A stretch of DNA of 64,000 nt from Cyclobacteriaceae bacterium. Lineage in GTDB: Bacteria; Bacteroidota; Bacteroidia; Cytophagales; Cyclobacteriaceae. A model generated the notes under the pieces. The model made no database searches, was not told the DNA's origin, and saw only the letters and a program-made list of their open reading frames with translations. Shown piece by piece: positions 1 through 23,175 of this stretch. The position numbers and the translations under genes are program-made. Position 1 is the first letter of the stretch. Every line of letters begins with the position of its first letter. The stretch is from contig JAIBBC010000001.1 in the NCBI GenBank assembly GCA_019694875.1, positions 1,681,501 through 1,745,500 on the forward strand. The letters are read 5' to 3'.

Positions 1-1311
1 TTCCACATTGCAACGGAACGATCCGACTATCATGAGAGAGAAGGCCATCCCGAACTAGCCGAGGAATATGTTTCTGTCATCGCTGGGATTGCCGGTGCCC
101 TCGGAAAATTTTGCTTCACAAGGGGTTATTTTGACTATGGCATTATGTTCTCCAAGGCTGGTGTTCGAGCTAATATTAGACTTAATGAAATAGACACCGC
201 CTCTACTCAGTACATGTATTTAGCGCAAATCCAGTGGAGTCAATACGATGAGACGAGTTTCTCGAATACTGTTGTGGAGCTGGAAGAGTTAGCAAAGAGT
301 ACCGGAAATCTGACCGCAACAATTTATTCAGCCTGGGCAAAAGGCAGGCTTGAACTGTACAGAAATAATTTTGCCAATGCACTAATCTTATATGAGCAGG
401 CTGCTAGTCTTATAAGTAAAAAAATTGAAGCTAATAAAGTTTCGGGGTCAATACAGAGGATAGATGACGACACTTTAAGAAAGCAGGCCGAAACTAGTGA
501 CATCGGAAATTGGGCTCTTGTTACAGGCGAGATCGGTAAAGTGCATGAATTTTCAGGTAACTATTCTGAAGCAACTAAATACCATAAAAAAGCGATCGAT
601 GTTCAGGAGCGATTTAATGATGAGACAAACTTAATGAGTAGTTATCATCATTACGCAAATTGCCTTATGCATTTAGGCCAATCCGACTTGGGGTTGGAAT
701 ATTATTTCAAGTCAATAGAAGGCTTTAACAGGAATAAGCAATTCGAATATTTATCTAACTCTATTTCTGACTTGGGACGGTATATTGAAGAAAGACCTGA
801 GTTGGCAAATCACGATCTCTTGGATGAGGAAACTCTTATGCTAGCACTCAATAGTATTAGCGATAACGTAAAGGATTTTATTGAAAGAGAATCAACGCGC
901 AAAAGTCTTGATGACGTTATTGATGCCATTCCCTTTGAATTATTGGGTAAATCAATCTTGATGATTAATGTATTGGGCTTTTCCCAGTATTCTCACAAGC
1001 TATGCGATTGGATATCAGATTTGACAGTGGGAATTGACATTCAAAGAATAAAACCTGGACTTTTTGGAGCAATTCTTAATGTTGGACATGCAGTTGGTGG
1101 TGTAAGTGAATGGCGATCCTTACCCGAAAATAAACCCTTGATGATCAAGTCTATTCTTCAAGGTTGTTTACTGATTAATGGCGGACCAGATCTAAAAAGT
1201 AAGAGCAGAATTTTCCCTTGGCTGGCAAAATGGATGCGACATGTTGGCCTTGATAAAGACGCCACCGCAGAAAAACTGTGGGAAGAAGCTTGGGGAAGTT
1301 TTGATCGTTAG
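1..1311 (+). CDS. TPR-repeat protein, 5' end outside window
   Basis: The reading frame is open from the first base of the window to a TAG stop, so the gene starts further left; the first internal ATG is at 145 but the codons before it read as normal protein. What is visible is an all-helical protein with TPR-like repeats, clearest in the section with GNYSEATKYHKKAID and the following LGQSDLGLEYYFKSIEGF segment. There is no signal peptide or membrane segment in the visible part. It converges with the minus-strand operon that ends at 1347. Helical repeat tails like this occur on STAND-type NTPases and on regulators; the N-terminal domain that would decide this lies outside the window. I cannot name a function. 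Confidence 0.8.
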   Translation, partial: FHIATERSDYHEREGHPELAEEYVSVIAGIAGALGKFCFTRGYFDYGIMFSKAGVRANIRLNEIDTASTQYMYLAQIQWSQYDETSFSNTVVELEELAKSTGNLTATIYSAWAKGRLELYRNNFANALILYEQAASLISKKIEANKVSGSIQRIDDDTLRKQAETSDIGNWALVTGEIGKVHEFSGNYSEATKYHKKAIDVQERFNDETNLMSSYHHYANCLMHLGQSDLGLEYYFKSIEGFNRNKQFEYLSNSISDLGRYIEERPELANHDLLDEETLMLALNSISDNVKDFIERESTRKSLDDVIDAIPFELLGKSILMINVLGFSQYSHKLCDWISDLTVGIDIQRIKPGLFGAILNVGHAVGGVSEWRSLPENKPLMIKSILQGCLLINGGPDLKSKSRIFPWLAKWMRHVGLDKDATAEKLWEEAWGSFDR

Positions 1312-1346: not shown

Positions 1347-1799
1347 CTATAGTCTCGAATATTCGCTAACAAATCTGGCAACAATAGATTTCGCTGTTGC
1401 TATAACTTCCGCGTTTCCAGTTCGTGGACTATTACGAACCCAGGAAATTACATCGAAAGTCGGTGATAGAGTGCCGCGAATAAGAAGAAGCTCCTTTTGT
1501 ACTAAATATTCAACACCTTCACGATATGACCTCTCCACTGTACAGTATTCTTTTTTACGAGGAAGGGCAAAAGTCAGAAGTTTAAAGTCATCGGTTGTAT
1601 CAATTGGATATCCTTTTGAGTTCAGAAACTGCTTCCTCAAGGTTCCATTTGGATTTAGGTGAGCGGAGGCTCTTCCTAAAGTACCAACCCTATCATTGGT
1701 CATGCCGACATACACAGCCTTATGAATTTTGGAAATCCAAATATAGATGTACGCTTGATCAACGCCAAGAAATATGTTAGAGACAAAAGTTTCAATCAT
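1347..1799 (-). CDS. GIY-YIG-like nuclease domain protein
   Basis: A small protein whose first third reads YIYIWISK followed by VYVGMTND and an R...H pattern, which is the look of a GIY-YIG nuclease core (two short beta strands ending in Y-V-G, then Arg and His on a helix). The GIY triplet itself is degenerate (IYIW), so this is a divergent member and the activity is uncertain. I chose the ATG at 1799, which overlaps the stop of the upstream ATPase gene by 8 bases (ATGATTGA) as in translational coupling; ATGs at 1814 and 1832 are possible and would add 5 or 11 residues. It is the last gene of the five-gene operon running from 8861 and is a candidate effector of that system. Confidence 0.65.
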   Translation of the reverse strand: MIETFVSNIFLGVDQAYIYIWISKIHKAVYVGMTNDRVGTLGRASAHLNPNGTLRKQFLNSKGYPIDTTDDFKLLTFALPRKKEYCTVERSYREGVEYLVQKELLLIRGTLSPTFDVISWVRNSPRTGNAEVIATAKSIVARFVSEYSRL

Positions 1800-3552
1800 A
1801 GTTGATTTTACCATACTTGGGAGGTAGCACATCTTCTAGCTTTCTCGTCATATTTGCGAGGAATTCTGAAGAAATCCTTCTGAATTCTGTTAGGATTTTT
1901 TTGAGCTCTTCATATTTGTACCCTCCAATCTTCTTATATGAGTATAGTTCCGATTCAGCCAGTTGGAGCAAAAGCAATTCAAAAACAATTTGGAGATCCT
2001 TGTTTGCAATATTGTCTTCATATATGTACCGACCAAAGCGATGGTACTTGTTTATTCGTACACAATCGCCTTTGTCGGTATCATAGTACGGCTCCCACAA
2101 TAAATTATCTGGGACAGACGACACTCTAAAAATTTTGGACGCAGTGGGATTTTTACTTCCTCTAATAGCTTCGTCTTTCTCATCTTCTGTCAAGGACTGC
2201 GTAGTAGGAGATTCCTCGCCCTTATCCTGCTTGAGCATTAGAGCCATTGTCTCTACTTTTTTCTCCATATCCTGCTTAATGCTCAACACTCTCTCTTTCA
2301 ACTCTCCTTCCTCCAACTCTTCATCGCCAGGAAGCAAATCTATTTGCTCAAAGTTTAGAATGATGCGGTTAGCAATTTCATTCGGTTCGACATTACTGGC
2401 TTCTGTGACTCTCCGACCGGCATTCAACCAAGCTTTCTTGCTTTTCGCTTTTGACTCTTGGGACAGATCACTAATTATATTGAAAGCTTCGTCTGATAAA
2501 GTAATGTTTGATTTTTTCACATCTATGTTAAAGTAGTCATCGGCAGAATCGTCTATGAGTATTCTACCGCGAAATGCAAAGTAATCTTGGTCATATGGTA
2601 TTATCCCTTGTAGCCCATGAGCCCAAGCAATCAATCGCTTATTTCTATAAACATAGAATCCGTAATTGCTCGAACCAATTAGATACTTCTCACGTATTTC
2701 GGCATCTTTTCCCTCCCCTGGATTTTCCATTCGGAATACAGGAGGATAAGGGAGTTGAGTTATTTCAAGCGTTGCCTTGATCTGGTTTTCATCATCCAAT
2801 ACAATCTCCTTCGGCTTTTCAATCCACTTTACTGTTTTACCATCCCATTCGTTTTCATTAAGAGTTCCATTTATATTGGCTTCCTCGACAAATAGTGGAT
2901 CAATAGGTTTAATTTTATTGTCTCCTATATATATTTCAATGTTGCTTTCCTTAATGAAATAATAGTATATGACGCCAATTCTTAGATTAAGTTCTTTGAT
3001 GGTTGCCTTTACGCTGGGGTGATTAACCTTCCTCACTTGTGACAGTCGTATAATAGTCCCTTTGCTTCCAGATAAATATTTTGATATTATTTGTTTGTCG
3101 GCATCATCAATATCCTTTTTTTCAGCGAAATATTTTTTTCTTGCGATTACTTCCGGTAATGAGATTTCATACTTTAAGAACGATGTGCCGTCCGTAGATG
3201 AAATCACATGAAGCACATCCGATTGTGAAAACGCGGCAGATTTTAGCCCCAAGCCAAATTTAGACAAGGAATGATCTTCATAATGCTCATCGGAACTACC
3301 TAATTTTAAAGCCTCTTTGAGACCTGCATCATCCATTCCGCATCCGTTGTCAATGATCACATAATCCCGTACATTATTTTTTCTCGAGTCCGCTAATTCC
3401 TCTCGCTCCTTTATTATGACCAGATTAATTTTTGTGGCGCCAGCACGAACCGAATTGTCAATAATGTCACAAAGCGCGGAGGCAGTTGTATAACCAATGC
3501 GACTCAGTCCATAAAGTAACCGACCCGCATCTATTTCGATATTGATTTCCAT
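1792..3552 (-). CDS. GHKL (HSP90/MORC-like) ATPase
   Basis: 586-residue soluble protein with a complete GHKL ATP-binding fold at the N terminus: the N-box in CDIIDNSVRAGA near residues 27-38, the G1 motif IIDNGCGMD near 67-75, and the G2 motif SKFGLGLKSAAF near 97-108. This resembles the ATPase of MORC, MutL and HSP90 proteins rather than histidine kinases, as no kinase H-box is present. The middle (250-350) looks like an S5-type transducer region and the C-terminal part is charged and helical. It follows the PAPS-reductase-like gene after 107 bases and overlaps the GIY-YIG-like gene. Proteins of this fold act as ATP-driven clamps on DNA; a role as sensor or clamp in this operon is inference. 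Confidence 0.85.
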   Translation of the reverse strand: MEINIEIDAGRLLYGLSRIGYTTASALCDIIDNSVRAGATKINLVIIKEREELADSRKNNVRDYVIIDNGCGMDDAGLKEALKLGSSDEHYEDHSLSKFGLGLKSAAFSQSDVLHVISSTDGTSFLKYEISLPEVIARKKYFAEKKDIDDADKQIISKYLSGSKGTIIRLSQVRKVNHPSVKATIKELNLRIGVIYYYFIKESNIEIYIGDNKIKPIDPLFVEEANINGTLNENEWDGKTVKWIEKPKEIVLDDENQIKATLEITQLPYPPVFRMENPGEGKDAEIREKYLIGSSNYGFYVYRNKRLIAWAHGLQGIIPYDQDYFAFRGRILIDDSADDYFNIDVKKSNITLSDEAFNIISDLSQESKAKSKKAWLNAGRRVTEASNVEPNEIANRIILNFEQIDLLPGDEELEEGELKERVLSIKQDMEKKVETMALMLKQDKGEESPTTQSLTEDEKDEAIRGSKNPTASKIFRVSSVPDNLLWEPYYDTDKGDCVRINKYHRFGRYIYEDNIANKDLQIVFELLLLQLAESELYSYKKIGGYKYEELKKILTEFRRISSEFLANMTRKLEDVLPPKYGKINYD

Positions 3553-3659
3553 AAAGCAAGAATTTAATCAAAAAATAACCCACCAATACCAAGTGAATGG
3601 TAGTTGATGGGCTCCATTAAATATAACGGGGTTAGTTGGTAATTGCAAAATGGTGCCCA

Positions 3660-4766
3660 CTAAATAAAACAAGAAGCGCAGCCCTCCCCTTCAACCTCAT
3701 CTAAAATATCAAGAAGATAATGAGATTTGTTGTTATTGGATTGGCGTTGTGTTCGTTTCAGATATTCTTCTTTTATCTTCCGCACTCGTTCTGGCTTAAT
3801 AAGCTCCTCTAACGATTCTTCTTGATTCCAGGTGTACCCTTGTTTTTCATACTGCATAGCTTTAGCGAATAGATGTGGGTGCTGCTCATAGAGCCAAATC
3901 CACTCAATTTTTTGCTGAAAGAAACAGAAATAACATCCCGAACGGCTCCGCGCATATTCTCCAGTTTTCCCATTTGAATCAAACTGTCGTTTTTCATAAT
4001 ATTCTGGAACTCCGACTCCACTCTCCCTTAACAGTCGAAAGATGTCATCACGAACCAAGACATCATTGTTTGATAATAGTTGGAATGATTCAGCTTGCGC
4101 TAAAGGGTATGCCGTAGTTTTCAGGAAAGCAAAGACCAGGTTGTTAAAGGTCTCGGTGTGGGCATCAAGCAATAAGTTGAGCTTTTGATTGAGTGTGAAA
4201 TTTTGAGTAAGTGGCTGCCTTAAAATCTCATCGATTTTTTTCGTGTACTGTGTGCGCGGTAAATTGGAAAAAATGGCGTTGAGATTTTCAATGTTGTTGT
4301 TAGGGAGCATTTTTGCAATTACATCCTCGCTCCAGATGTTCTTACGGAAGGGAAAAATGCTCTGCACATTGGACTTCTTTGAGATGTATCCCTCACGATC
4401 TTCATCACCCCTAATTCCAACGTATGATATTACCGGATCATCCCCAACATATTTTTCGAAGGGCACCAATTTGAGAACTTTCGTGCACCATCGTGAATTT
4501 GAAGATGGTAGAAAGCCACCATACATCTTGAGGAAATGGTCAAAAGGTGATTCGTTGCTTCCATCAGCGGCTTGCAAACGAACAATTTTCTTCCCTAAGT
4601 AAACTTCAAGATTATTAATTAGTTGATAAGTCTCATCAAGTTCCTTTCCTGTATCGCATGTGTAGTATTCAATATCCAATTCAGGATATTTATCCTTCAT
4701 ATATATAGCCAGTGCTGCACTATCCTTACCTCCCGAAATACCTAAAACGTGTCTAACTTTTTTCAT
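3660..4766 (-). CDS. PAPS-reductase-like (DndC-type) PP-loop protein
   Basis: 368-residue protein of the phosphoadenosine phosphosulfate reductase superfamily. The PP-loop SGGKDSAAL at residues 11-19 binds and adenylates with ATP. Cysteine sites follow: RWCTK near residue 93, a CYFC pair in the second half, and a GCASC pair at the very C terminus (363 and 366), compatible with an iron-sulfur cluster as known for DndC. True assimilatory reductases are shorter and lack the extra cysteine pairs, so a role in DNA or RNA sulfur chemistry is more likely than in cysteine synthesis. It overlaps the end of the 1074-residue ATPase gene by 4 bases. Relatives occur in Dnd/Ssp phosphorothioation and type 4 BREX; no DndA, DndD, DndE or PglZ is seen here. 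Confidence 0.85.
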   Translation of the reverse strand: MKKVRHVLGISGGKDSAALAIYMKDKYPELDIEYYTCDTGKELDETYQLINNLEVYLGKKIVRLQAADGSNESPFDHFLKMYGGFLPSSNSRWCTKVLKLVPFEKYVGDDPVISYVGIRGDEDREGYISKKSNVQSIFPFRKNIWSEDVIAKMLPNNNIENLNAIFSNLPRTQYTKKIDEILRQPLTQNFTLNQKLNLLLDAHTETFNNLVFAFLKTTAYPLAQAESFQLLSNNDVLVRDDIFRLLRESGVGVPEYYEKRQFDSNGKTGEYARSRSGCYFCFFQQKIEWIWLYEQHPHLFAKAMQYEKQGYTWNQEESLEELIKPERVRKIKEEYLKRTQRQSNNNKSHYLLDILDEVEGEGCASCFI

Positions 4767-7700
4767 TTTTGTAATAGCTCTTTTAAGATGTTGGCAAGTG
4801 CCGCGATGTTTAGCGTCTTGTCTTTTGTAAGCTTTCCTTTAATAGTATTTTCAATTTTATTTACCTCCGCTAGTTTATGCTTTGGCATTCGTATGAGGCT
4901 TCTGTTAATGCCATCTACAAAAGAACTCATTTCTATTCCGAGTACTTCCTCGTTATCGGTATCCAAATCTTCTTTTGACAAATTGGTCAGGCTATCCAGC
5001 TCACGCATCAAAATTCTGAACTTATCGTAGAGAATTATTTCTTCCTCGTCCTTAATGTTTTCGAGAGTCTTCCCAATCACCGCTTGCGCTAGTGAATTTA
5101 GCCAAGACTTCTTGTCGTCAAGCTGAGAATCTATCCTTTGAATAAAGGTTTTCTGGTGAGGGAGACAAAGGTGCTTTTTCAGACTCTTGAATCTGGCCTG
5201 TAGCCTTTCTTGATACTCCTCAAAACGCATATTGCTTTCGAAGTATTCGTCTAATATAAACTCCTCAAATCTATTTAGAAGTCCGTCAAGGCTGGTTCGA
5301 AGTTCTCGAATGGAATCATGAAGCTTTTCAATGTAAGCCTTTAGATTTGTTTTGGAGTTCTGAATCGCTTCGATATTGTAGCCCAATGCGGTTGGGAAGT
5401 CCTCAAAGAATGCTTTCTCCGGATCTTTTGCATTTGCAATAGCTGTTCTGATTAAGAGGGTTTCCTTTCTAAGCCGGGTGGTATTTTTCGAGTATTCGGA
5501 AAGACCCTTGTAAAAAGTTAAGAAAGGCTTAATGGTCTCAATAAAGGTCTGATTGCTAATTTTTTCCTTTGATTGTTGATTCAGGAAAATTCGATAGCTA
5601 TTAAATATGTCAAGCTTAACCCCTGCGATGTCGAAAGTTTTTATCTCGTAGTCCTCTGGGTACTTAATCAACAATTCAAGTACCTCATCAGTGATGTATG
5701 GAATGAACCCACTTGAGCCGAATAAAGCGAAATCATCTCGCTTGATAAATAAGAACGTGGCTACCCAAAAATCAATTAGTCCCTGTTTAAGTTTAAATGG
5801 TCGTTTTTTAAGCGGTTCGATAAATTCAAGAATAGATTTACGATTCAGTTTAGCACTGTTCAAAAAATCATTGGAATAATTCCAAAGGTGTACGAAGGTT
5901 GATTTTCTTGAAACATGCGTGACAAAGTTTAAATCGTCCGAGTATAGCTTTAACCCGTTTTCCTTGAGTAGTGTTAAGTAAATTGTTTTTTCCGGGGGGA
6001 ATTTTTCCTTTTCAAAACCGAGATCTGGTTGATTGTAATTGTCAACAAGTGCTCTAAGGAAGTTCTTCTTGGCAACATGAATGGAGTTTGAGATTTTATG
6101 CTTGTTTACAAGTTCATTCCTGAACTTTGGGGTATTCGGATAAACAACATTACATATCTCTGATAGCTTTTGATTAAACTCTCGCTTGCTACTAATTACA
6201 ACTTCCTCTCCTTGGTGAAACCACGTCAGTTCCTGGTTATGTGAATATAGGTTGTGTAAAATAAAGTGGTTTAGAAGATTCTTCTGATGCAGAAGAATAT
6301 GATGGAGTTCCTTGAGTGCAGCCTTATCATGTGAGTTCTCATCAATCACACGCTTAGTTTTCTCAATCTCAAAAAGAAGATTTTTGATTGTCTTTGAGTT
6401 TCGATAATAACCGTAGAGAATAGCTTCGTCTTGTTCAGCGGACGCTTGCTGAACCAAATTTATATCAAGTTTTTCATTGAAGATAAGGTTAATGAAACCA
6501 TCGACTTCATCTTTTGGAATCTCAGAGATAGGTCTATCTGATATTTTGAACTCGAAAAGCCGAGGTGTTCCATTCAGATATGAATAAGCCTTGGCAATTA
6601 CTGGAGGAAGCTGATAATATTTATTTAAAAGGTAAGGTACATTAACAATCTCGCTTACCTTATTGCCGGCTTCAATCAGTGCCGAAGGAATATCCAAATC
6701 TGTCCCCTCAGTTAATACAAAACGGTTGCTATATTTTCTGAACAGAATTATTCTTTTTCCTTCTAATGCTTCTATTATTTTGTTCGGTTGTTCAATGCCC
6801 AGCGCAACGCGCGCATATTTCTCTAGGAACTCTCGTCCCAAATCCGCGCCTTGAGAGGCTGTGATATTGAGCAGACCAATTGTCTTTATGATTTTTGAGT
6901 GATCGAGTGTATTTCCGTCAAACGCTCTCTCGACCGTTTCCAATGCGCCTTTGATAGAAGTCCATATAGTAAAGTCTGGGTTATACCTCGAATTGATAAA
7001 GCTGTAAAAGTTGAATATGAGATAGTCATGGACAGAGGCAACGTTATAAAAACCATTTTTCCTTGAATCGTGATTATTAATTCCTGTTTGATCCGTGGCT
7101 TCCAAAAATGAAAATAATGATCGCTCATTCTGACCATATCTTTGGAGGGAAATGGTTAGAATATTAGCAGCAACTAAGTCAAGTGGAAACAGCTTTGTAG
7201 CAACCTCACTTGCGTATCCAGTATTAATTGAATATGCCTTACTCTTTTTAAAGAGGGTTAATGCGGTCTTTATACTTTGCTCAGTGTTATGGTCAATTCG
7301 ATTTTGTTTTTTCAAATGCTCGGATGCGAGGTAGAGTAATTGTTCGACCGGTTCATTGAATGTTATTTCCTTGAAACGCCCCTTTACTTTAGACCATTCC
7401 TGCTTCTGACTGTTGTTGAGTTTGAAGGCATACGCATCAAAGTTCTGATGTACGGTAGTAACTAGAATAATGTTGTGGTCTGGATTGTTTGCAAATTCAG
7501 ATAGCTGTTGTATAAAGTATAGTTCTTTTTCAGGTGTATTGTCCGCTGCATATTCTAAGAACTTACCGAACTCATCAATGACCAATAACAACAATGGGTT
7601 TTTCTTGCCGAGCTTATGATAGTGGTTAAAGATTTCTGAAAAGATTGCTTCGTTAGGCTGCTTGTTTAAGTTAACGTCAAAGTGGTCAGCAAAAGCAGAG

Positions 7701-7987
7701 GTAATCGACTTATACTCTCCAATGAAATTGATCACTTCAACTCTGGGAGCCTGAAGTAAGTTGAGATCAAAAATCTTTTTCTTTCCGTTTAGGCTCTGTT
7801 GCAACGCCCATAGAAATGATGATTTACCCGTACCATACGAACCAATAATGTTGAACGAACGGAGTCCGCGCTTAAAGTCGTTCGAAATCTGATTGACAAC
7901 TTTGTTAGCGTTTGGAGTCGGTATGTAGTTTATATTTCGTGACGAGTCACGAATAATATTGGTTGACGTTGTAAATTTAGTTTGCAT
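4763..7987 (-). CDS. large P-loop ATPase of defence-like operon
   Basis: 1074-residue protein with a Walker A motif GSYGTGKSS at residues 49-57 and a Walker B VIDEFGK at 136-142, followed by a long largely helical body. The early position of the P-loop, the DEFGK Walker B and the length resemble the BrxC/PglY and related STAND-like ATPases of phage-defence operons, although I see no diagnostic signature for one family. No nuclease or methylase motif is evident in the rest. Its ATG lies 11 bases inside the end of the DUF4007 gene and its end overlaps the PAPS-reductase-like gene by 4 bases, so the three are translated as a unit. It probably powers assembly or target scanning for the system; this is inference. 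Confidence 0.8.
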   Translation of the reverse strand: MQTKFTTSTNIIRDSSRNINYIPTPNANKVVNQISNDFKRGLRSFNIIGSYGTGKSSFLWALQQSLNGKKKIFDLNLLQAPRVEVINFIGEYKSITSAFADHFDVNLNKQPNEAIFSEIFNHYHKLGKKNPLLLLVIDEFGKFLEYAADNTPEKELYFIQQLSEFANNPDHNIILVTTVHQNFDAYAFKLNNSQKQEWSKVKGRFKEITFNEPVEQLLYLASEHLKKQNRIDHNTEQSIKTALTLFKKSKAYSINTGYASEVATKLFPLDLVAANILTISLQRYGQNERSLFSFLEATDQTGINNHDSRKNGFYNVASVHDYLIFNFYSFINSRYNPDFTIWTSIKGALETVERAFDGNTLDHSKIIKTIGLLNITASQGADLGREFLEKYARVALGIEQPNKIIEALEGKRIILFRKYSNRFVLTEGTDLDIPSALIEAGNKVSEIVNVPYLLNKYYQLPPVIAKAYSYLNGTPRLFEFKISDRPISEIPKDEVDGFINLIFNEKLDINLVQQASAEQDEAILYGYYRNSKTIKNLLFEIEKTKRVIDENSHDKAALKELHHILLHQKNLLNHFILHNLYSHNQELTWFHQGEEVVISSKREFNQKLSEICNVVYPNTPKFRNELVNKHKISNSIHVAKKNFLRALVDNYNQPDLGFEKEKFPPEKTIYLTLLKENGLKLYSDDLNFVTHVSRKSTFVHLWNYSNDFLNSAKLNRKSILEFIEPLKKRPFKLKQGLIDFWVATFLFIKRDDFALFGSSGFIPYITDEVLELLIKYPEDYEIKTFDIAGVKLDIFNSYRIFLNQQSKEKISNQTFIETIKPFLTFYKGLSEYSKNTTRLRKETLLIRTAIANAKDPEKAFFEDFPTALGYNIEAIQNSKTNLKAYIEKLHDSIRELRTSLDGLLNRFEEFILDEYFESNMRFEEYQERLQARFKSLKKHLCLPHQKTFIQRIDSQLDDKKSWLNSLAQAVIGKTLENIKDEEEIILYDKFRILMRELDSLTNLSKEDLDTDNEEVLGIEMSSFVDGINRSLIRMPKHKLAEVNKIENTIKGKLTKDKTLNIAALANILKELLQK

Positions 7988-8861
7988 AGTAGTGGTTCAT
8001 TATTGCAACAGCGGTTCTATTTCTTTTGAATTGCAGTTCCTTTATTCCAGCATTGTCCTTATATACCAAATCATTGAATTTCGAGGTTAGGTTTTCGATT
8101 TTAGAAACTAAACCTGGACGATTTATTGCGAAGATTGATCCAGCACTGTTGTAGTCGTGTTCGATGTTGTTTAAGTTGATTGAGGAATCAAATTGACCGC
8201 CATCAAGGATGGCATAGAGAATTACTTCATCCGGTATTTCGTGCCGCTCACTGTTTTCGATTATAAGAAACTCATCTTTGCCCTTACTGAAGGACTTAAT
8301 TAAATTCAAGTCTGTTAACAAACCTGAAAAGCTTTCTTCTTTGTCTTTCAGTTGAAGGTCAGAGCGAAGATACATCTTCATCATAACCGAAAAGTCCTCG
8401 CTAATTGTCTTTTCATTTATTTGAGAAGTCCGTTCGCTTTCTGATTTCCTTTTTACAAATGAAATGAAGTTATCCTTTGTGAATTCAATCCGTTCGCGCC
8501 TTAATTCATTAAAGACAATAGAATAGGTTGAAGCAAAGTTGTTTTTGACCAATTGATAATGAAGTAGCCAGAGGCTTGCCTCGTCCTCCAGGTAAGGATC
8601 CCACCCATCATCACTCAGTAATTTATGCGCGAATGAAGTTAATTTATCATCAGTAGTAAGTAGGTTAAAAGCCTTCATCCAAAATCGAATCGAAGCAACC
8701 ATGTTTTTTCCTACTCCCAATTCAACAACTGCATCTTCCGAGTTGAATGAATTTTCTGCTGCTATGAAATCATAGCCCTTTTTCAACCACAATTGACGAC
8801 ACTGAAATGATTCGTGTCCTGAAAAAGTTAGTTTAGTTGTTGTTGTCTTACTTTTCATCAT
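7977..8861 (-). CDS. DUF4007 family protein
   Basis: 294-residue protein that opens with the typical DUF4007 sequence: TFSGHESFQCRQLWLKKG near residues 12-29, then ELGVGKNMVASIRFW near 47-61. The family has no established biochemical role but is found beside PAPS-reductase-like proteins and ATPases in putative DNA-modification clusters. Two ATGs are adjacent at the start (8861 and 8858). It is the first gene of the five-gene minus-strand operon, with 83 bases separating it from the S24 repressor gene upstream, so repressor and system may share a transcript or be controlled together. A winged-helix DNA-binding role has been a reasonable guess for such proteins, but I see no direct proof here. 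Confidence 0.85.
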   Translation of the reverse strand: MMKSKTTTTKLTFSGHESFQCRQLWLKKGYDFIAAENSFNSEDAVVELGVGKNMVASIRFWMKAFNLLTTDDKLTSFAHKLLSDDGWDPYLEDEASLWLLHYQLVKNNFASTYSIVFNELRRERIEFTKDNFISFVKRKSESERTSQINEKTISEDFSVMMKMYLRSDLQLKDKEESFSGLLTDLNLIKSFSKGKDEFLIIENSERHEIPDEVILYAILDGGQFDSSINLNNIEHDYNSAGSIFAINRPGLVSKIENLTSKFNDLVYKDNAGIKELQFKRNRTAVAIMNHYYAN

Positions 8862-8944: not shown

Positions 8945-9757
8945 TTACTTCTCATTTTTAAGCTGCTCTACAAGTTTTGTGGCTAAAAAATCTAAAACCT
9001 TGCCTGATGGGGCGTCAATATTTTCCTCTGAAAAAGTGATCCTTGCTACAAAGCACCATAGTTCTCTCACCTCCGTAACATCGATTGTGTATGGATCGTA
9101 CAACCGGTTATCCGAGACGAGCAAAAGCCTGCCGATGTCGAGGAAATTATAGACGCGCTTGTAGACAATCCCCTGAAATTGCGTGAGGATCACATAAGTC
9201 CCACCGTTTTGTATTTCTTCGAAGTTCTCTACGTAACGGCCAATGATAATGTCACCTGGCTTGACAGGTATCATGGAGTCTCCCGAGATTTCAAACCCCC
9301 TGTAGGTGTGGTTTCTTGGTAAAGTGGGAATTTGAATTTTGGGAAGTTCTTTTATGAATTCAGGGTCACTGTATCCATTTGAGTATCCAGCCGCAGCTTT
9401 GTGATTGACCAGTTCGACATTCTCCTCGTTGTCGGAAGTAACCGTTATTGAAAGGACTTCCTTCCCCCGAGTAACACGCGATTTTAGAAATTTCTTAGTG
9501 TTGCTCGATATGTCTAATCTTAGTATCGCCTCCAAGTCGATTTTGAAAAGGTCAGCGATTTTCAAAACCATAAGAACTGGAGGAATCGAACGACCTTCTT
9601 CATAAGAGCCAATGACTGGCGTCTTTACCTGCAGCTTACCCGCAAGTTCCCTTTGCGTCCAACCTGCATTTTCACGCAAAAAACGGATGTTTTTATTTAC
9701 CGGCTCCAATGTGATAGGGGGTCTTGCTAAAACTACATTAAATAGTTTTGATTTCAA
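8945..9757 (-). CDS. XRE-S24 family repressor (LexA/CI-like)
   Basis: A 270-residue repressor with an N-terminal HTH (GWTQRELAGKLQVKTPVIGS, residues 32-51) and a C-terminal S24 autoprotease: cleavage site AAAGY at 121-125, catalytic Ser161 in GDSM and Lys200 in IVYKRV. Such proteins are cleaved after DNA damage, releasing phage or mobile-element genes. The frame has no ATG: TTG at 9757 and TTG at 9709 are the candidates. A 15-bp inverted repeat covers the first codons if 9757 is used, so the 9709 start (254 residues) is attractive because it would leave both operator arms upstream. It sits just upstream of the DUF4007 operon on the same strand and may control it. Confidence 0.85.
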   Translation of the reverse strand: MKSKLFNVVLARPPITLEPVNKNIRFLRENAGWTQRELAGKLQVKTPVIGSYEEGRSIPPVLMVLKIADLFKIDLEAILRLDISSNTKKFLKSRVTRGKEVLSITVTSDNEENVELVNHKAAAGYSNGYSDPEFIKELPKIQIPTLPRNHTYRGFEISGDSMIPVKPGDIIIGRYVENFEEIQNGGTYVILTQFQGIVYKRVYNFLDIGRLLLVSDNRLYDPYTIDVTEVRELWCFVARITFSEENIDAPSGKVLDFLATKLVEQLKNEK

Positions 9758-9790: not shown

Positions 9791-10069
9791 TCAATTGAAT
9801 CCCTCACTAAAGAATTCCTTGGGAGTTACGCCAAGCGCGTGCATTACTTTGAGTAGACTGCTATACCTCAAATCCTCTCCTCGCTCATATCGGCCAAACT
9901 GTGCTCTATTAATTCCGTTTTCGAAGGCAAATATTTCATAACTGGTATAGCCTTTTTCGATGCGCAACTGTTTTATTCTATCCCCTAGCCTAACCAACTC
10001 TCCCTGTACTCCTTCATCCAATGGTTCACGTTTAGAGGGGGCTTTTGGGGCAAATTTTCGCTTTTTCAT
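9791..10069 (-). CDS. small XRE-family HTH regulator
   Basis: 92-residue protein with a lysine/arginine-rich start and one helix-turn-helix domain of the XRE type (GDRIKQLRIEKGYTSYEIF, then INRAQFGRYERGED). The last residues match the end of a Cro/CI-like domain, so it is a stand-alone DNA-binding unit. I use the ATG at 10069; a TTG at 10081 would add four residues. It ends 33 bases before the S24 repressor gene on the same strand and has its own palindrome upstream at 10114-10137, suggesting self-control and a two-regulator switch for the neighbouring operons. Confidence 0.8.
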   Translation of the reverse strand: MKKRKFAPKAPSKREPLDEGVQGELVRLGDRIKQLRIEKGYTSYEIFAFENGINRAQFGRYERGEDLRYSSLLKVMHALGVTPKEFFSEGFN

Positions 10070-10113
10070 GCGATAAATCAAATGAATCCCCCGCTTTTAA
10101 GTTACCGCTATAA

Positions 10114-10339: not shown

Positions 10340-11758
10340 ATGTTTTTGAAAAGGATAGCTCTTTTGTTCATTTGCACACTCATCTGCTCCAGCATTTTTG
10401 CCCAGGTTCCCGTCATTCCTGAGCCCTCTGAGTTTAAGTTCGAAAACTATTCCTCAAATCAATTTTTCAATACAAAAACCCCAAGCACGCCTTCGATTCA
10501 ACTTCCAACCGTTCCCGCCTACACCCAGCAAGCAAATTCGCAAGTCTACAATCCATCAGCATGGATGATAAATAAATACTACGTCAAGCCAAATATGACA
10601 CCGGAGGAGCAAGTGCGTTATGCTGACGAGCAAATAAGACAGCATGAACTAGAGCAAAGACGGAATGACGTAGTTATGAATGAAGCAAATTCAATTTTCG
10701 ATGCCCTTCGCATTGACTACGAGCTTCCGTTTAAAGAATTGCCAGAAAAGCAGATTTACGCAGCAGCCTTTATTGAACTGGAACGAATGCTTAAAGGCGA
10801 ACTGCCAATAGATCTCGAAAAAGCAGTATACGTAGTGGAGCATGCGTTTGATCCGACATTAAACTTTGGCGAATTCGATCGACAGTTAAATAAGGCCGCG
10901 AATGTAATCGGCTTAAAAATGCAACAAGACAAAATATCGCTGTCTGATAATATTGGAAAGGTCATGACTACCTTCAAGTATTTCGCAGACACCATTTCAG
11001 TGGCATCAAAAGGTGAAACAACAATCACCTCCTACCCAAAGGAGTATGATTTTGAAGATTTTTGGGGAAAGCAGGATTATCGAAAAATGTTTGTCTCAAA
11101 ACTACTGAAGGAAGGTAGTGGTCAGTGTCATTCAATGCCTTTATTGTTCTTATTGCTTTGTGAGAAAATTGGAGCTAAGGCGAATTTGGCTTTTGCGCCA
11201 AACCACTCGTTTATAAAATTCCAAGACAAATACAATCAATGGCACAACATTGAGCTGACTAACGGCATGCTTGCGTCTGATCATTTTATGGTGGAGTCCG
11301 GATTTGTAAAAGCAGAAGCGATACAGAATAAGATATACATGGAGCCCCTTACAAAAAAAGAGGTTGTAGTTCAGTGTTTAAATGATCTTGCACTTGGGTA
11401 TCAAAAGAAATATGGATACGATCCATTTGTTAGGGAATGTGCAAATGTCGCATTGGCTCACGATTCCAATAGTTTGACCGCACGACAGGCTCTTGCAAAT
11501 TACTATATCACCCTAAGTAACTACATAGCGTATCAGTACAAGATGAAGGGATTAACAAGAAACCAATTTGATCAAGATCAGGAAGCGCAGGCGATTGTTG
11601 ATGCCACTAACAAGGCAATTCAAGAAATTGAAAATCTCGGATATGCTGATATGCCTGAAGATGCTTATTCAGCTTGGCTAAATTCCATGAAAGACGAGGT
11701 CAACAAGAGACAACATTCAAATGAAGTAAAGGTATTAGGAGGTATGATTGAGCGATGA
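10340..11758 (+). CDS. secreted transglutaminase-like protein A
   Basis: 472-residue protein with a clear signal peptide ending near Ala21 (hydrophobic LLFICTLICSSIFAQ). The centre carries a transglutaminase-like catalytic pattern: Cys in SGQCHSM near residue 262, His in PNHSFIKF near 288 and an acidic residue in HNIELTNG near 304. The region before it (EYDFEDFWGKQDYRKMFVSKLL) is repeated almost exactly in the next gene, so the two are paralogues. The N-terminal 100 residues are proline-rich and low in structure. It is the first of four tightly linked genes; its stop overlaps the next start (ATGA). The enzyme could cleave or crosslink proteins in the periplasm; the substrate is unknown. Confidence 0.75.
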   Translation: MFLKRIALLFICTLICSSIFAQVPVIPEPSEFKFENYSSNQFFNTKTPSTPSIQLPTVPAYTQQANSQVYNPSAWMINKYYVKPNMTPEEQVRYADEQIRQHELEQRRNDVVMNEANSIFDALRIDYELPFKELPEKQIYAAAFIELERMLKGELPIDLEKAVYVVEHAFDPTLNFGEFDRQLNKAANVIGLKMQQDKISLSDNIGKVMTTFKYFADTISVASKGETTITSYPKEYDFEDFWGKQDYRKMFVSKLLKEGSGQCHSMPLLFLLLCEKIGAKANLAFAPNHSFIKFQDKYNQWHNIELTNGMLASDHFMVESGFVKAEAIQNKIYMEPLTKKEVVVQCLNDLALGYQKKYGYDPFVRECANVALAHDSNSLTARQALANYYITLSNYIAYQYKMKGLTRNQFDQDQEAQAIVDATNKAIQEIENLGYADMPEDAYSAWLNSMKDEVNKRQHSNEVKVLGGMIER

Positions 11759-12870
11759 AGAAAGTTCTTTTTACAATATCGTTTTTATTCGTTTCGAAGT
11801 TTGCTATCGGCCAAACTGATAACTTGAAACTATCGGCTGAAAAGCAAAACTATGAGGTAGCATTCAAGGAGCTTAGAGGTATGCTGAAAGACAGCATTCC
11901 GATGAGCTTTAAGAAGGCCGTATTTCTGACAGAGAATGCTTATCTGGACAATGATCTTAGCTATGATGCCTTCAATAATCGAATTCAACACTTAGTCATG
12001 TTATGCAAAGACATGGCAAATGTTGCGACATTATATTATGATGAAAAGGATAAGAATGAAGTAGCTAAGTACTGGTCTGTGTATATGGTTATGAAGCACA
12101 GACAGACCTATGAGTTGGACAGCAACAACCAGCGAAAACCATTTACGCCATTCATTTATGATTTTGATGACTTTTGGGGTGAAAATGATTGGACAAAAAT
12201 GTTTGTCTCCAAATTGATGGCGACTGCAAAAGGGAACTGTCATTCGTTGCCATTCTTGTATAAAATTCTTTGCGAAGAATTGGAGGCAAAAGCATATTTA
12301 TCGATGGCACCAAACCACATTTATATTAAGCACTGGACAAAGAAAACAGGTTGGTTCAATACAGAACTTACAAGTGGCTACTTTCCAATTGACGCATGGA
12401 TTATGGCATCCGGATATGTTCATCTTAGCGCGGTTCAGAATAGAATCTACATGGATACCTTAGACTCCAAACAATCTATAGCGGTTTGTTTGGTGGACCT
12501 GGCCAAAGGGTATGAAAGAAAATTTGGGCTAAAGGCCGATTTAAACTTTATCGAGAAAAGCTCACAGCTAGCTCTTGAGTATTATCCAAACTATGTAAAT
12601 GCCTTAATTCTGAAGGCTGAAACTATGAAGAAACGCTTTGAGCTTTACATGACTCAGCACAAAGCAAGTTCGCCATCGGCTGTATTTAATATTCCTGAGG
12701 CAAAGTTGCTCTTTGAAGAAATGGAAAAGCTTTACTTCCACATTCATCAATTGGGGTACCGTATGATGCCTAAAGAAATGTACATTGCATGGCTGGATGA
12801 ATTAAAACAGGAGAAAGAAAAGTATCTCAATAAGCAAATCACAAACGGATTTAATTTGGATAAAAAATGA
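11755..12870 (+). CDS. secreted transglutaminase-like protein B
   Basis: 371-residue paralogue of the preceding protein, with a signal peptide (MKKVLFTISFLFVSKFAIGQ). It keeps the same catalytic pattern: Cys in KGNCHSL near residue 161, His in PNHIYIKHW near 187 and Glu in NTELTSG near 203, plus the preceding DFDDFWGENDW block. It lacks the proline-rich N-terminal extension of protein A. Start and stop overlap both neighbours by four bases (ATGA), so the operon is translated as a coupled unit. The two copies could act as a pair or on different substrates. Function in the operon is unknown; processing or anchoring of the RHS-type product is one possibility. Confidence 0.75.
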   Translation: MKKVLFTISFLFVSKFAIGQTDNLKLSAEKQNYEVAFKELRGMLKDSIPMSFKKAVFLTENAYLDNDLSYDAFNNRIQHLVMLCKDMANVATLYYDEKDKNEVAKYWSVYMVMKHRQTYELDSNNQRKPFTPFIYDFDDFWGENDWTKMFVSKLMATAKGNCHSLPFLYKILCEELEAKAYLSMAPNHIYIKHWTKKTGWFNTELTSGYFPIDAWIMASGYVHLSAVQNRIYMDTLDSKQSIAVCLVDLAKGYERKFGLKADLNFIEKSSQLALEYYPNYVNALILKAETMKKRFELYMTQHKASSPSAVFNIPEAKLLFEEMEKLYFHIHQLGYRMMPKEMYIAWLDELKQEKEKYLNKQITNGFNLDKK

Positions 12871-13871
12871 ACAAAAAACTAAATCTCTTAATTCTTTCCG
12901 CCTTTTTGATCTTCGGCAATGTTGCTGCACAGCAACCATTTGAAGATTACGGTTACAAAGTGAAGGTCGCTACTTTGAGTAAAGGGAAGTATCAGGAATT
13001 TTTTGATCAAGATACCCTGGTTCAAATTGGAACAGTAGTTATTAATCGGCTAAATGGTAAGATAACACACTTTGTTTCCTATGATACAACGTATTCAGAA
13101 GCGTCACTACAGCCTGACCTTATTAGCCGATGGCTGAGACCTGATCCTCTCTCAGAAAAATATTACAGCTATTCACCATACAACTTTGTTCTGAACAATC
13201 CTATCAAGCACATTGATCCGGATGGAAGAGAAGTTTGGATTGTTCACAAGAAACAAGAAATTAAGTACGACAATGGTAAACTCTATAATAAGGACGGTTC
13301 TGCATATACTGGAAAAGTCAAGGGCTTTTTAAAGCAGAGCGTTAATGCACTTAATTCAATTGGAGGCACAACAACTGGAGGTAAAATGCTATCGGGACTA
13401 CAAAGTTCATCCAACGTATTCAAGATAGCGAAAGGAACTAGTAGTGAATTCAAAGCCGATGATGCAATTAAGGCAAACGGAGTTGCAATTAAGAATAGTC
13501 CTGCTGGTGCTTCGTATTCCGCTGCAAGACTCACAGGAGGGTCAGGCGGAACGCTTACATGGAACCCTAACAAGGGAGAAGAGTTTGTCAGCACAACTAA
13601 GGGACCAGAGAGCAATCCTACAACTAACCTCGCACACGAAATGGCTCATGGTAGTGATGCGGATAATGGTTTGGCAAACAACACACTTCATAATGGTTTG
13701 AAACTAGATGAATGGCAGGCAAGCCATACCGAAAATGCAATTCGGGGTGAAATGGGATTAAACCTACGAGATACATACAATACGAAAGCTAATGGCCCAA
13801 TCCCATTGTTAGATGCGACTGGTCAGCCTTTGACATTCCCAACACTTCCTTTAATTACACCAATACGCTAA
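12867..13871 (+). CDS. RHS-core protein with C-terminal HExxH metallopeptidase domain
   Basis: 334-residue protein with a signal peptide (LLILSAFLIFGNVAAQ), then an RHS-associated core-like segment (RWLRPDPLSEKYYSYSPYNF, then NNPIKHIDPDG ending near residue 117), which in polymorphic toxins marks the junction to the toxic tip. The C-terminal 150 residues include NLAHEMAHGSDADNG near 253-267, an HExxH zinc site, and a later Glu-rich EWQASHTENAIRGEMG resembling M91 (NleD-type) peptidases. The large YD-repeat barrel of full RHS toxins is missing, so this is a mini-RHS or a displaced toxin tip. It overlaps the gene before it by 4 bases and is followed after one base by a small gene that may encode immunity. 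Confidence 0.75.
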   Translation: MNKKLNLLILSAFLIFGNVAAQQPFEDYGYKVKVATLSKGKYQEFFDQDTLVQIGTVVINRLNGKITHFVSYDTTYSEASLQPDLISRWLRPDPLSEKYYSYSPYNFVLNNPIKHIDPDGREVWIVHKKQEIKYDNGKLYNKDGSAYTGKVKGFLKQSVNALNSIGGTTTGGKMLSGLQSSSNVFKIAKGTSSEFKADDAIKANGVAIKNSPAGASYSAARLTGGSGGTLTWNPNKGEEFVSTTKGPESNPTTNLAHEMAHGSDADNGLANNTLHNGLKLDEWQASHTENAIRGEMGLNLRDTYNTKANGPIPLLDATGQPLTFPTLPLITPIR

Positions 13872-20616: not shown

Positions 20617-20886
20617 ATGGATATGGTGAAGGACAGCAATGTGACGAAGGTAAGTATTTTTGTTTTGCGACCGCTTACGCATAAGCAACTCGCGCAGATG
20701 TACGGAGTAAGCTGGTTGACTTTCCAGAATTGGATCAAGCGTGTTGAGAATGAAGTCGGTAAAAAGACGGGACACTTCTATCACGTACCACAGGTAAGAA
20801 AAATCTTTCAGCTCTTTGGAATGCCAAAGCAGATAAACATGACGCTTAGTGAATTTGAAAAGCTATTTGCTATGGAAAAGCAATAA
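20617..20886 (+). CDS. small HTH-like protein, copy 1
   Basis: 89-residue protein with a helix-turn-helix-like core: HKQLAQMYGVSWLTFQNWIK at residues 25-44, followed by GHFYHVPQVRKIFQLFGMPK. The same layout and many of the same residues occur in the 90-residue protein at 21770. The tryptophan-rich recognition helix and the short length suggest an excisionase- or MerR-type DNA-binding protein. The gene converges with the S24 repressor gene, whose stop is only five bases away. The two copies flank the repressor, one on each side, as if the repressor gene had been placed between duplicated regulators. Confidence 0.7.
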   Translation: MDMVKDSNVTKVSIFVLRPLTHKQLAQMYGVSWLTFQNWIKRVENEVGKKTGHFYHVPQVRKIFQLFGMPKQINMTLSEFEKLFAMEKQ

Positions 20887-20891
20887 GCTTA

Positions 20892-21680
20892 CTACATAGC
20901 TTTTTTGAGTTGCTCTTTCAGCAACACCAAATCTCCTTCAAGAGAGTTGATACGCTCATACAACCCTGAAGGCTCTGGTGCCTGACGAGTCAGTTTCATT
21001 TTGAATTTCCAGACCTCCTTGATGTTTTCGACTGGTAAAGGAAAGGTTGGGTACTGCGGATCTTTGTTATCCGATTTGCAGATGATGACTCCGCCCTTAT
21101 CTAAATAGTTGAGGCAACGTTTCAAGACTATGTTGTCTACTTCTTGAGCGTTGTTCACTAGAACATATACGAATCCATCTTTTATATCTTCAAGTCGCTC
21201 AACAAATTCAGCAATGACAACATCACCGGGATAGAAACCTTGCCGGTCAGCAAGCATACTATAACCGCTTACTTCAAACGCCCGGAAAGAACCATGACCA
21301 AGACCAGGGAGCCAAAATGCTGGAAGACTTTCAATGTATTCTTGTTGCTGTGCACCAACAAGGTATCCAGCTTGAGCTTTAATTGGCACCAGTACGATGT
21401 TGTCTTTCCCGGTATTGTCCACGGTGGTCAAAACAGTCCGAACCTCGCGCAAACCTCCTGTTTTTGCAGGCTTTGAGTTGCCGGTTAAATGATCCCAAGT
21501 TGTTGAGTAATGCTTTACAATCTTGTCAATCGTCTCCAAAGAAGGGTATATCTGACCACTTTCGATCTGGGAAATAGCCGACCTGCTTAATTCGACTGGA
21601 ATGCCAAATTCCTCCTGAGAGAGCCCTTTTTCGAGCCGTAAAGCCTTAATCTGGTTACCTACGACATCTTTTGTCAGCAT
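20892..21680 (-). CDS. XRE-S24 family repressor of the integrated element
   Basis: 262-residue repressor with an XRE HTH at the N terminus (GLSQEEFGIPVELSRSAISQ, residues 19-38) and an S24-type domain: cleavage site QAGY at 103-106, catalytic Ser141 in GYSM and Lys187 in IVLKRC. It ends in a predicted coiled-coil tail (LEGDLVLLKEQLKKAM). It is transcribed away from the small HTH-like gene at 21770, with an 89-bp shared promoter region that holds a palindrome. The arrangement is that of a phage-like lysogeny switch, and it should control the rightward genes at 21770-29972. Confidence 0.85.
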   Translation of the reverse strand: MLTKDVVGNQIKALRLEKGLSQEEFGIPVELSRSAISQIESGQIYPSLETIDKIVKHYSTTWDHLTGNSKPAKTGGLREVRTVLTTVDNTGKDNIVLVPIKAQAGYLVGAQQQEYIESLPAFWLPGLGHGSFRAFEVSGYSMLADRQGFYPGDVVIAEFVERLEDIKDGFVYVLVNNAQEVDNIVLKRCLNYLDKGGVIICKSDNKDPQYPTFPLPVENIKEVWKFKMKLTRQAPEPSGLYERINSLEGDLVLLKEQLKKAM

Positions 21681-21713
21681 AGATTTATTTGTTTAGTAAA
21701 ACTTGACAATATT

Positions 21714-21726
21714 AGTAAGTATTACT
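21714..21726. promoter_or_regulatory. small operator palindrome in divergent promoter
   Basis: AGTAA and TTACT flank GTA (AGTAAGTATTACT) midway between the S24 repressor gene and the divergent HTH-like gene. A second, weaker symmetric site AGTAAAACT lies at 21695-21703. Both are plausible binding sites for the repressor, but they are short and AT-rich. Confidence 0.4.
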
Positions 21727-21769
21727 TAACATTGCAAACTGACCACGTAAATAATAACGACATAAATAT

Positions 21770-22042
21770 ATGAAGCGCGAGATCACAAAAACCGAGGAAA
21801 CCGGACACAAACCAGAAATCTTTGTATTGAAACCCTACAATCACAAACAACTGGCCGACTTCTACGGGGTGTGCTGGTTGACGTTTCAGCGATGGGTGAA
21901 GAAGCACGATGAGGAAATCGGAAAGAAGCAGGGCCACTTCTACAGTATTAAGCAGGTACTTATTATCTTCAAGATATTCGGAATGCCTAAACGCTTTAAG
22001 GTGTCGTTGTCGGAAGTGGAGGAAATGTTTAAGGCAGCATGA
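21770..22042 (+). CDS. small HTH-like protein, copy 2
   Basis: 90-residue paralogue of the protein at 20617, with the matching core HKQLADFYGVCWLTFQRWVK at residues 25-44 and GHFYSIKQVLIIFKIFGMPK after it. It is divergent from the S24 repressor and the first gene of the rightward block of the element, in the place of a Cro-like or activator gene. A function as DNA-binding switch protein is likely from the fold and position; the exact family is not recognised. Confidence 0.7.
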   Translation: MKREITKTEETGHKPEIFVLKPYNHKQLADFYGVCWLTFQRWVKKHDEEIGKKQGHFYSIKQVLIIFKIFGMPKRFKVSLSEVEEMFKAA

Positions 22043-22072: not shown

Positions 22073-23083
22073 ATGGCATATACCCGACATCAATTGGATG
22101 AAGCTTGGGGACATGAGGACAAAAGCGAGAATGGGCCTTCCAGGAAAATATTCCTTGAACTATTAGCAAGGGCGAAGAAAAACGAAAAGTTAACTTTTGC
22201 GGAAGCCGAATATCTGTGCAACGCACTTCGGTTTACAAAACTTGATGATGAAGGGCCAGGTGATTTCAAGATTTGTGATGACTACATTTTTAGGAACCTC
22301 TATTTAAGGTATGTTTTTGACTTAAATGGAGTGACACCAATAAAAAAGAACAAGACTGAATTCACACCTGTCGCAGAGAAACGGATAGAGGTTCAAAAGC
22401 TAGATGAGTTTTTTCAGGATTGGGAAAAAGTAGTCGAGCGATCAAACCATCCCAATCAAGCCTTAAATTATTTATCAAAGGAGACTCGATCCGAAATCAA
22501 AGAACTTGAGAAACTTCCAGAGTTTAATCAATACGGTTTCCTTCGGAGGTGCAATCATTTTGACTATCGCAAAAAGAAGATCGTACTTCACTCTAAATTT
22601 ATTTACATCAAATACCAGGAAGTAATGTCTGAACTGAGCGAAGCTGATCAAACCTATGAGCTAAATGGTGAGCAAATCGAATTCACTGAATACAGTTTTA
22701 TTCACATCCTCTTTAGACACTATGCTGAAATAGTCAAGCAAACACCTAATAACAAATCATATCATATTCCTGACTTTAGTCCAGATGAAATCGTTGGTCG
22801 CCTGAAAGAAATTTTTAAAAGAATAGACGAGTCTACGAAATTTGTTGGACAGCCTATTCATGAGGTGAATTTTAGATTCAAAGGAGTTATTTATCGGATC
22901 TGGATTAATGACAGGATCAAATCAGTAAAGGGGAAAGGTAACGTGGTGTTTAATAGGCTTGAAACATTTTTCCCCCTTGCAGAAAAGACGGAGTTAGAAG
23001 ACCTGAAAAACAATTTCATTGAACTAGAAATTGACCCGGAACTAAGCGTGTTCACAACAAAGCCAGCAGCAGGAAACGGCTGA
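22073..23083 (+). CDS. hypothetical protein of element backbone
   Basis: 336-residue soluble protein, rich in charged residues, without signal peptide, membrane segment or a catalytic motif I can name. It begins MAYTRHQLDEAWGHEDKSEN and contains several aromatic, basic stretches (residues 155-180). It starts 31 bases after the small HTH-like gene and is followed by 92 bases containing an inverted repeat before the large helicase gene. Position suggests an early element function, but I see no direct clue. Confidence 0.65.
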   Translation: MAYTRHQLDEAWGHEDKSENGPSRKIFLELLARAKKNEKLTFAEAEYLCNALRFTKLDDEGPGDFKICDDYIFRNLYLRYVFDLNGVTPIKKNKTEFTPVAEKRIEVQKLDEFFQDWEKVVERSNHPNQALNYLSKETRSEIKELEKLPEFNQYGFLRRCNHFDYRKKKIVLHSKFIYIKYQEVMSELSEADQTYELNGEQIEFTEYSFIHILFRHYAEIVKQTPNNKSYHIPDFSPDEIVGRLKEIFKRIDESTKFVGQPIHEVNFRFKGVIYRIWINDRIKSVKGKGNVVFNRLETFFPLAEKTELEDLKNNFIELEIDPELSVFTTKPAAGNG

Positions 23084-23104
23084 AAACTTCTATAATATTT
23101 CAAA

Positions 23105-23136
23105 ATTGTTAATAATCATTCATTTCCATTAACAAT
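23105..23136. promoter_or_regulatory. inverted repeat upstream of helicase gene
   Basis: ATTGTTAAT at 23105-23113 and ATTAACAAT at 23128-23136 are perfect 9-bp arms with 14 bases between. The right two thirds (23114-23136) match the motif at 20527-20549 in 20 of 23 bases. It lies 40 bases before the GTG start of the large methylase/helicase gene and looks like an operator. Confidence 0.45.
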
Positions 23137-23175
23137 CGTTAACCTTCATTTTGGCCACATTCTACATTTGGTAGA

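Follow-up and report, generated by a model that had tools for sequence, protein, structure and literature searches.

An Ssp-type DNA phosphorothioation locus with a candidate MORC ATPase and GIY-YIG nuclease arm in a Cyclobacteriaceae bacterium

A 64,000-nucleotide stretch of a Cyclobacteriaceae bacterium (GenBank assembly GCA_019694875.1, contig JAIBBC010000001.1), called the window here and located at G000:C1:1681501-1745500 in the 4.68-Mb genome, contains five minus-strand open reading frames (ORFs) spanning 7.5 kb. A sequence-only reading had proposed that they form an undescribed DNA-modification or defence operon. The tagging half is known, and the attack half, a MORC-type ATPase with a GIY-YIG protein, appears to be undescribed. 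On balance, we consider it probable that the whole is an Ssp-type phosphorothioation (PT) defence locus in which the MORC-GIY pair is the restriction arm and PT-free DNA is cut. The five ORFs lie where that reading had placed them, none is broken, and they are genuine genes:

7977..8861, minus strand: sspB (DUF4007), 294 aa, DNA-binding subunit of the Ssp PT machinery; PADLOC SspB 4.5e-114, Pfam DUF4007 1.5e-79
4763..7987, minus strand: sspC, BrxC/Orc-Cdc6-like AAA+ ATPase, 1074 aa; PADLOC SspC E 0, 1465 bits
3660..4766, minus strand: sspD, DndC-like PP-loop sulfurtransferase, 368 aa; PADLOC SspD 1.1e-94
1792..3552, minus strand: MORC-type GHKL+S5 ATPase, 586 aa
1347..1832, minus strand: GIY-YIG endonuclease-like protein, 161-aa frame; start probably M7 or M12, by comparison with relatives

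Because PADLOC names SspB, SspC and SspD strongly, and because the window SspB matches the solved SspB structures 6juf and 6lb9 (E 1.3e-21), the modification half is assigned to the known single-strand phosphorothioation system, and homology gives good support for DNA marking by it. On these matches, sspB, sspC and sspD of the known PT family make up the first three genes. An N-terminal P-loop can be read by eye in the SspC translation, and no PDB entry was matched by the SspD sequence. Extra cysteines had been singled out as a special trait of the PP-loop protein, a view that was rejected; five of the six are common to 20 of 20 aligned SspDs, as is the SGGxDS motif (the alignment leaves out L066, L070, L075, L076, L077, L013, L015-L021, L024 and L027). 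An undescribed modification system was rejected, the genes being those of Ssp. What stands of the original proposal is a conserved DNA-modification and defence operon, of which only the effector half looks new.

The hallmark PT partners had also been said to be absent. The DUF4007 protein is itself SspB, and sspA is located a short way beyond the edge of the window, 8.1 kb past the end of the GIY gene (G000:C1:1673591-1674751; PADLOC SspA 4.9e-150 and DndA 9.7e-149, nearly tied). A cysteine desulfurase query gave five matches in the same genome, the best at C1:1673600-1674703, and the desulfurase that an SspABCD module requires is present there as sspA. The sspBCD genes usually form an operon of three, whose SspA partner may be encoded elsewhere or have IscS in its place (PMC8092258). 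This case shows that a known system can be overlooked when one hallmark gene falls past the edge of a window.

The two remaining genes carry the new part. In the 586-aa protein, a GHKL+S5 module with the MORC signature GhXhhpXXRhl (PMC2292703) is present, and the best structural matches of its model, in a fold comparison of about the first 384 residues, are eukaryotic MORCs, some of them DNA complexes; by sequence and model it is of the MORC class. The MORC alignment (A4) holds 14 proteins and does not include L015, L017 or L026, which is broken; that used for the model (A5) also omits L013, which has unread bases, and L027. The smaller protein has, by the same kinds of evidence, a GIY-YIG fold with the conserved Arg and Glu that characterize the GIY-YIG endonuclease superfamily, and its candidate catalytic residues are invariant among aligned relatives (alignment A3, 13 of the 15 GIY proteins from the scan and window, near-copies L015 and L017 left out). 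Searches with the MORC query gave no confirmed match in viral contigs, three weak records in phages and 50 plasmid records, none with 80% coverage. The GIY query matched nothing in plasmids and, by sequence, nothing in the PDB. The MZA system was rejected, as the MzaB equivalog score was 102 bits against a cut-off of 850.

In the mechanism that we propose, SspA would deliver sulfur, SspB would bind DNA, SspC would serve as an AAA+ motor, and SspD would insert sulfur into the backbone of self-DNA. The MORC protein would dimerise on DNA with ATP as a clamp, and it would bring the small GIY-YIG nuclease along or set its position. On DNA that lacks the PT mark, such as phage DNA, the nuclease would be licensed to nick or cut, and PT marks near the clamp would block it. 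We infer PT in the host, a physical MORC-GIY interaction, cleavage, and a PT control that blocks rather than triggers. The placement of the modification genes ahead of the nuclease genes would fit protection before restriction. It is established for the Ssp family that SspABCD places single-strand PT marks, SspFGH damages non-PT DNA and SspE depends on PT (PMC8092258). There are precedents for the proposal: MORC and paraMORC ATPases occur in methylation restriction-modification (R-M) operons (PMC2292703); and VcSduA is a phage-defence GHKL-nuclease fusion (PMC12137116).

The structural likeness to eukaryotic MORCs, including DNA complexes, would also suit a silencing role, in which the MORC protein mainly traps and compacts foreign DNA as eukaryotic MORCs do and the GIY protein has no more than a trimming or resolving task; DNA is trapped and condensed by MORC-1 of C. 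elegans (PMC8277788). This seems very unlikely: the partner is nuclease-like, its candidate catalytic residues are invariant, and at six other Ssp loci a GHKL ATPase stands together with a helicase and a PLD-like gene.

The five genes recur together in other genomes, so that the refuting condition set by the sequence-only reading, genes not conserved together, was checked and did not apply. A scan of species genomes that asked for MORC alone, using a two-sequence MORC alignment (window and L007) and two short peptide patterns so that loci can be missed, returned 16 loci, and the order sspB-sspC-sspD-MORC-GIY is kept in 14 of them; the five-gene set thus survived the neighbourhood search. These 14 belong to Pedobacter, one Sphingobacteriales metagenome-assembled genome, the cyanobacterium Phormidium tenue and eleven bacteria that we take to be flavobacteria from the names in record titles, with Leeuwenhoekiella and Altibacter (L014, L017) among the carriers. 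By our reading, about six lineages are independent, namely the window, L007, L012, L022, L023 and the flavobacterial group. The sspB-sspC, sspC-sspD and MORC-GIY junctions overlap or lie at most 2 bp apart in all 14, and two extra ORFs are inserted between sspD and MORC in L022. In 12 of the 14, sspA is convergent and abuts the GIY gene; none is found at L012, and the L023 candidate lies about 9 kb off on the same strand as the operon.

Among 395 genomes of the phylum, which we take to be Bacteroidota from protein similarity, the sole full-length relative of the window MORC is that of G030 (locus L007, 55%). The match in G355 (locus L008) comes next at 33%, and three more with 29-30% are weaker still. 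The G030 gene lies with sspBCD and a GIY gene, although SspD is present in only 21 of the 395 genomes. L007 has distant SspB and SspC (29% and 24%) and a GIY at 44-47%, and a transposase gene and an 817-aa HATPase gene lie between its sspD and MORC genes. Two weaker MORC relatives, L009 and L010, have an SNF2 helicase gene alongside. Profiles A2 and A6 turned up no further strong relative; because the GIY profile A2 (E<=1e-5) missed the GIY protein of G355, A2 is short in reach. In Mantel tests on nine loci, four of which are close relatives, all ten protein pairs gave p 0.0002-0.0008, and MORC against GIY gave an exact p of 0.015 on the six non-redundant loci. Genomic context supports the proposed partnership well.

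The window locus has a second candidate arm. From G000:C1:1673591 toward the ssp operon runs a convergent series, sspA-pbeA-70aa-pbeC-like-164aa-STAND, in which the PbeA-like SF2-helicase protein has a PADLOC E of 0 and the PbeC/DndD-like ABC ATPase scores best with the PbeC family (1.3e-28). Only the end of this series reaches into the window:

1..1311, plus strand: C-terminal TPR part (Pfam TPR) of an NB-ARC/STAND-type gene that starts at G000:C1:1679893

The N-terminal part of this gene matches NB-ARC (2.7e-6). It would be an accessory gene at the end of the sspA run, and its membership is uncertain.

This series bears on a further explanation, in which the Pbe-like operon restricts, while MORC-GIY accompanies PT loci as a separate effector for back-up or suicide and does not read PT. 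Of 21 Ssp loci in the phylum, 7 have PbeA-like genes by SspBCD, among them that of the window; such genes also stand beside the dnd-linked MORC-GIY locus L008; furthermore, stand-alone URI nucleases near dnd loci have been proposed as suicide back-ups (PMC10853773). Those nucleases, however, sit at the boundaries and sometimes on the other strand, whereas MORC-GIY lies inside the sspBCD operon with overlaps. In addition, no match to PbeA, PbeC or the 164-aa protein at 1e-5 was found in the stretches examined of L007 and the 14 scan loci, which are the 15 other loci with all five genes. Because all 15 are without a Pbe match, MORC-GIY seems not to need Pbe and may serve alone, and we judge the back-up explanation unlikely.

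Locus L008 of G355 (L008:4967-16015) has a comparable pair beside dnd genes. There, dndC-dndD-dndE comes before a gene for a relative of MORC (29-33%) and a GIY-YIG gene that overlaps it (Pfam 1.5e-4). A convergent run of 164-aa-like, PbeC-like and PbeA-like genes (PbeA 42%) comes right after the GIY gene. The layout is that of the window with dnd replacing ssp, and both arms, MORC-GIY and Pbe-like, are present in each. A plasmid search with the L008 MORC gave 33 records, none with 80% coverage.

The presence of a MORC relative and a GIY-YIG gene with dndCDE suggests that the tail may read sulfur itself and not a motif, and this could favour control of the SspE kind, in which the ATPase is licensed on sensing PT in the DNA of the host, after which incoming DNA is damaged by the nuclease. 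SspE itself works by PT sensing (PMC9646914, PMC8092258). No DUF262 match was found in MORC or GIY, however, and no PT-binding domain was recognised in either, the MORC fold being compared over the residues given above, so that we hold such a PT-triggered pair to be rather unlikely. What chiefly separates the explanations considered here is whether PT blocks or triggers the pair, and which of the two arms is the restricting one in this host.

Several observations weigh against the proposal that MORC-GIY is the PT-blocked restriction arm. Confidence in the GHKL model is no more than moderate (pLDDT 64), the GIY Pfam score is under the Pfam cut-off, and Foldseek gave no match for the GIY model at E<=0.001. 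The acid at the N-box is usually Glu. Because this position is Asp here (D29), as in MORCs of this type, ATP turnover may be weak. Eleven of the 14 positive loci are flavobacteria related to one another, and the profile counts are partly circular, profiles A2 and A6 having been built from their own top-scoring sequences. On the six non-redundant loci, the four Ssp-to-tail pairs gave exact Mantel p values of 0.046-0.063, a borderline co-divergence. At L025 and L026, relatives of MORC (44-48%) occur with neither Ssp nor GIY nearby; L026 is cut by a contig end, at which it starts, and an HNH gene adjoins. The pairing in the dnd locus may be independent, because its GIY has no blastp similarity to that of the window at 1e-5. 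Finally, the Pbe-like module beside sspA could be the real restriction arm here, and the dnd locus L008 has such a module as well.

No PADLOC system name covers the GHKL-nuclease tail and no description of it was found in the literature searched, in agreement with the sequence-only reading. A published MORC and GIY-YIG pair was likewise not found in full-text literature, a search to which subscription papers, bioRxiv and supplements were outside, so that a prior description is possible. The locus shares SspA, SspB, SspC and SspD with SspABCD-SspE, and it differs in having MORC and GIY-YIG in place of SspE (DUF262-DUF1524); DUF262 has no match in the operon, and the single match in the genome lies some 157 kb off, in a frame of 403 aa. 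With SspABCD-SspFGH it shares sspBCD beside a multi-gene restriction arm (PMC8092258), but that arm consists of three genes with a Walker A SspF and an FtsK-like SspH, and here there are two, for a GIY-YIG protein and a GHKL ATPase. Neither of these matched a P-loop or FtsK family, and the distinction from SspFGH follows the description of that system. BREX type 4 has homologous DUF4007, BrxC/SspC and PAPS-reductase parts (PMC12839542), whereas here SspD and SspB are unfused and the operon has no PglZ or BrxL match; neither was found among eight window proteins and six left-hand genes, the rest of the genome not being searched. Dnd (DndCDE) differs in that SspC and SspB stand here in place of DndD and DndE. 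BREX type 4, Dnd, SspE and SspFGH were each rejected as the whole system.

Further parallels exist. Prokaryotic MORC and paraMORC R-M operons also place a MORC-type GHKL+S5 ATPase beside modification and nuclease genes, but with base methylases, helicases and RE, HNH or HKD nucleases (PMC2292703); the text of that paper does not mention phosphorothio-, PAPS, URI or GIY-YIG. Dnd loci with URI (GIY-YIG) nucleases likewise combine PT modification with a nearby GIY-YIG nuclease, which there stands alone at the locus edge, and its text makes no mention of GHKL or MORC (PMC10853773). The phage-defence protein VcSduA (GHKL-Shedu) also has a GHKL ATPase for which control of a nuclease is proposed; it is, however, a single fused protein with a PD-(D/E)xK nuclease, and the passages on it name no DNA modification genes (PMC12137116).

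GHKL ATPases are found more widely at Ssp loci. In the 395-genome sample, 21 loci have SspD at E<=1e-30, and their proteins were clustered within 15-20 kb of each. SspB, SspC and SspD clusters occur in all 21, and SspA in eight. Eight loci hold a GHKL ATPase, two of them a MORC with GIY and six a Glu type with two further genes; an 820-aa HATPase occurs in four, and at least one GHKL-type ATPase in 11. Because 11 of 21 hold one, GHKL ATPases are suggested to be recurrent partners of sspBCD.

The six Glu-type sets (L063, L065, L071, L079, L080 and L081) comprise SF2 helicase-like, GHKL ATPase (606-661 aa) and PLD-like genes beside sspBCD. Pfam assigned an SF2 helicase in both companions tested and PLD in three of four, the latter near the cut-off (E 2.5e-5 to 2.9e-6). 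A second undescribed restriction arm made of helicase, GHKL and PLD-like genes is possible. A protein of about 807-854 aa with a weak N-terminal HATPase is present in 12 of 16 sspBCD-MORC-GIY loci, the window and L007 counted, and at three further Ssp loci without MORC (examples at L007:9637-12090, L013:1779-4328 and L072:4675-7098). The 820-aa HATPase query found none in the window's own genome. The Ssp locus of L072 has two further genes beside it, one for a protein kinase and one that is weakly DUF262-like (L072:7104-8888).

Some of these loci show signs of transfer. In four flavobacterial pairs (L014-L016, L014-L019, L016-L019 and L016-L020), a block is 92-95% identical between flanks of 79-85%; it begins at the left edge of the compared stretch and ends at about base 13350, just past sspA. 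No drop is seen for L014-L020 (90% throughout), L019 and L020 resemble each other closely over the whole length (98%, 96%), and in pairs that involve L018 or L024 the drop is small or absent. Near the window's locus, a backbone reaching up to 10.6 kb to its left is common to three other copies of an element (in the same genome, G396 and G049). Because all three backbone matches end at C1:1673394, about 200 bases before sspA, the PT island seems to begin at the cargo junction of a repeated integrative element.

This backbone (G000:C1:1661310-1673394, L028; copies at G000 ~1556000-1572400, G396 and G049) holds integrase-like and muramidase-like genes, both named by reading, and a 632-aa gene of it occurs at four places within about 150 kb of its own genome. 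The right end joins different DNA in different copies, and one copy is followed by the PT island. Genus searches gave no simple empty site for the island. Window positions 20659-22042 and ~22073-29972 resemble the same part of an element copy near G000:C1:1587370, as does a stretch about 50 kb to the left (G000:C1:1650653), and in both the window and that stretch large ORFs of 1556/1583 aa, 537/519 aa and 160 aa come next. Elements of this family probably have their right end here.

Two putative regulators lie to the right of the operon, the first directly upstream of sspB:

8945..9757, minus strand: HTH-S24 (LexA/CI-like) regulator; HTH_3 2e-11, Peptidase_S24 4.6e-7
9791..10081, minus strand: small HTH protein resembling R-M control proteins; PADLOC Control_protein 2.9e-9

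From position, the former is a possible operon regulator and the latter a possible regulator. Directly beyond them, at 10340-13871, come two related genes (37% alike) and a third in which an RHS-like stretch can be read.

Finally, characterised PT restriction arms are few (DndFGH, Pbe, SspE, SspFGH and DndI), and this locus would add one more candidate, for which the idea of mechanism is clear: a clamp on DNA, driven by ATP, would license a nuclease that is a separate protein. It would link prokaryotic MORC ATPases to backbone modification, a link not found in the parts of the literature searched, and the five-gene set, at 7.5 kb, can be tested in E. coli. Tentatively, and with less expectation than for the locus itself, MORC and paraMORC GHKL ATPases may form a general, unrecognised effector class, in which MORC with GIY, the paraMORC-like ATPase with SF2 helicase and PLD-like proteins, and the 820-aa HATPase are interchangeable arms on sspBCD. 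If this is true, MORC would read a mark of the backbone and not of the base, and the ancestry of eukaryotic MORC silencing would be tied to sulfur-marked DNA.

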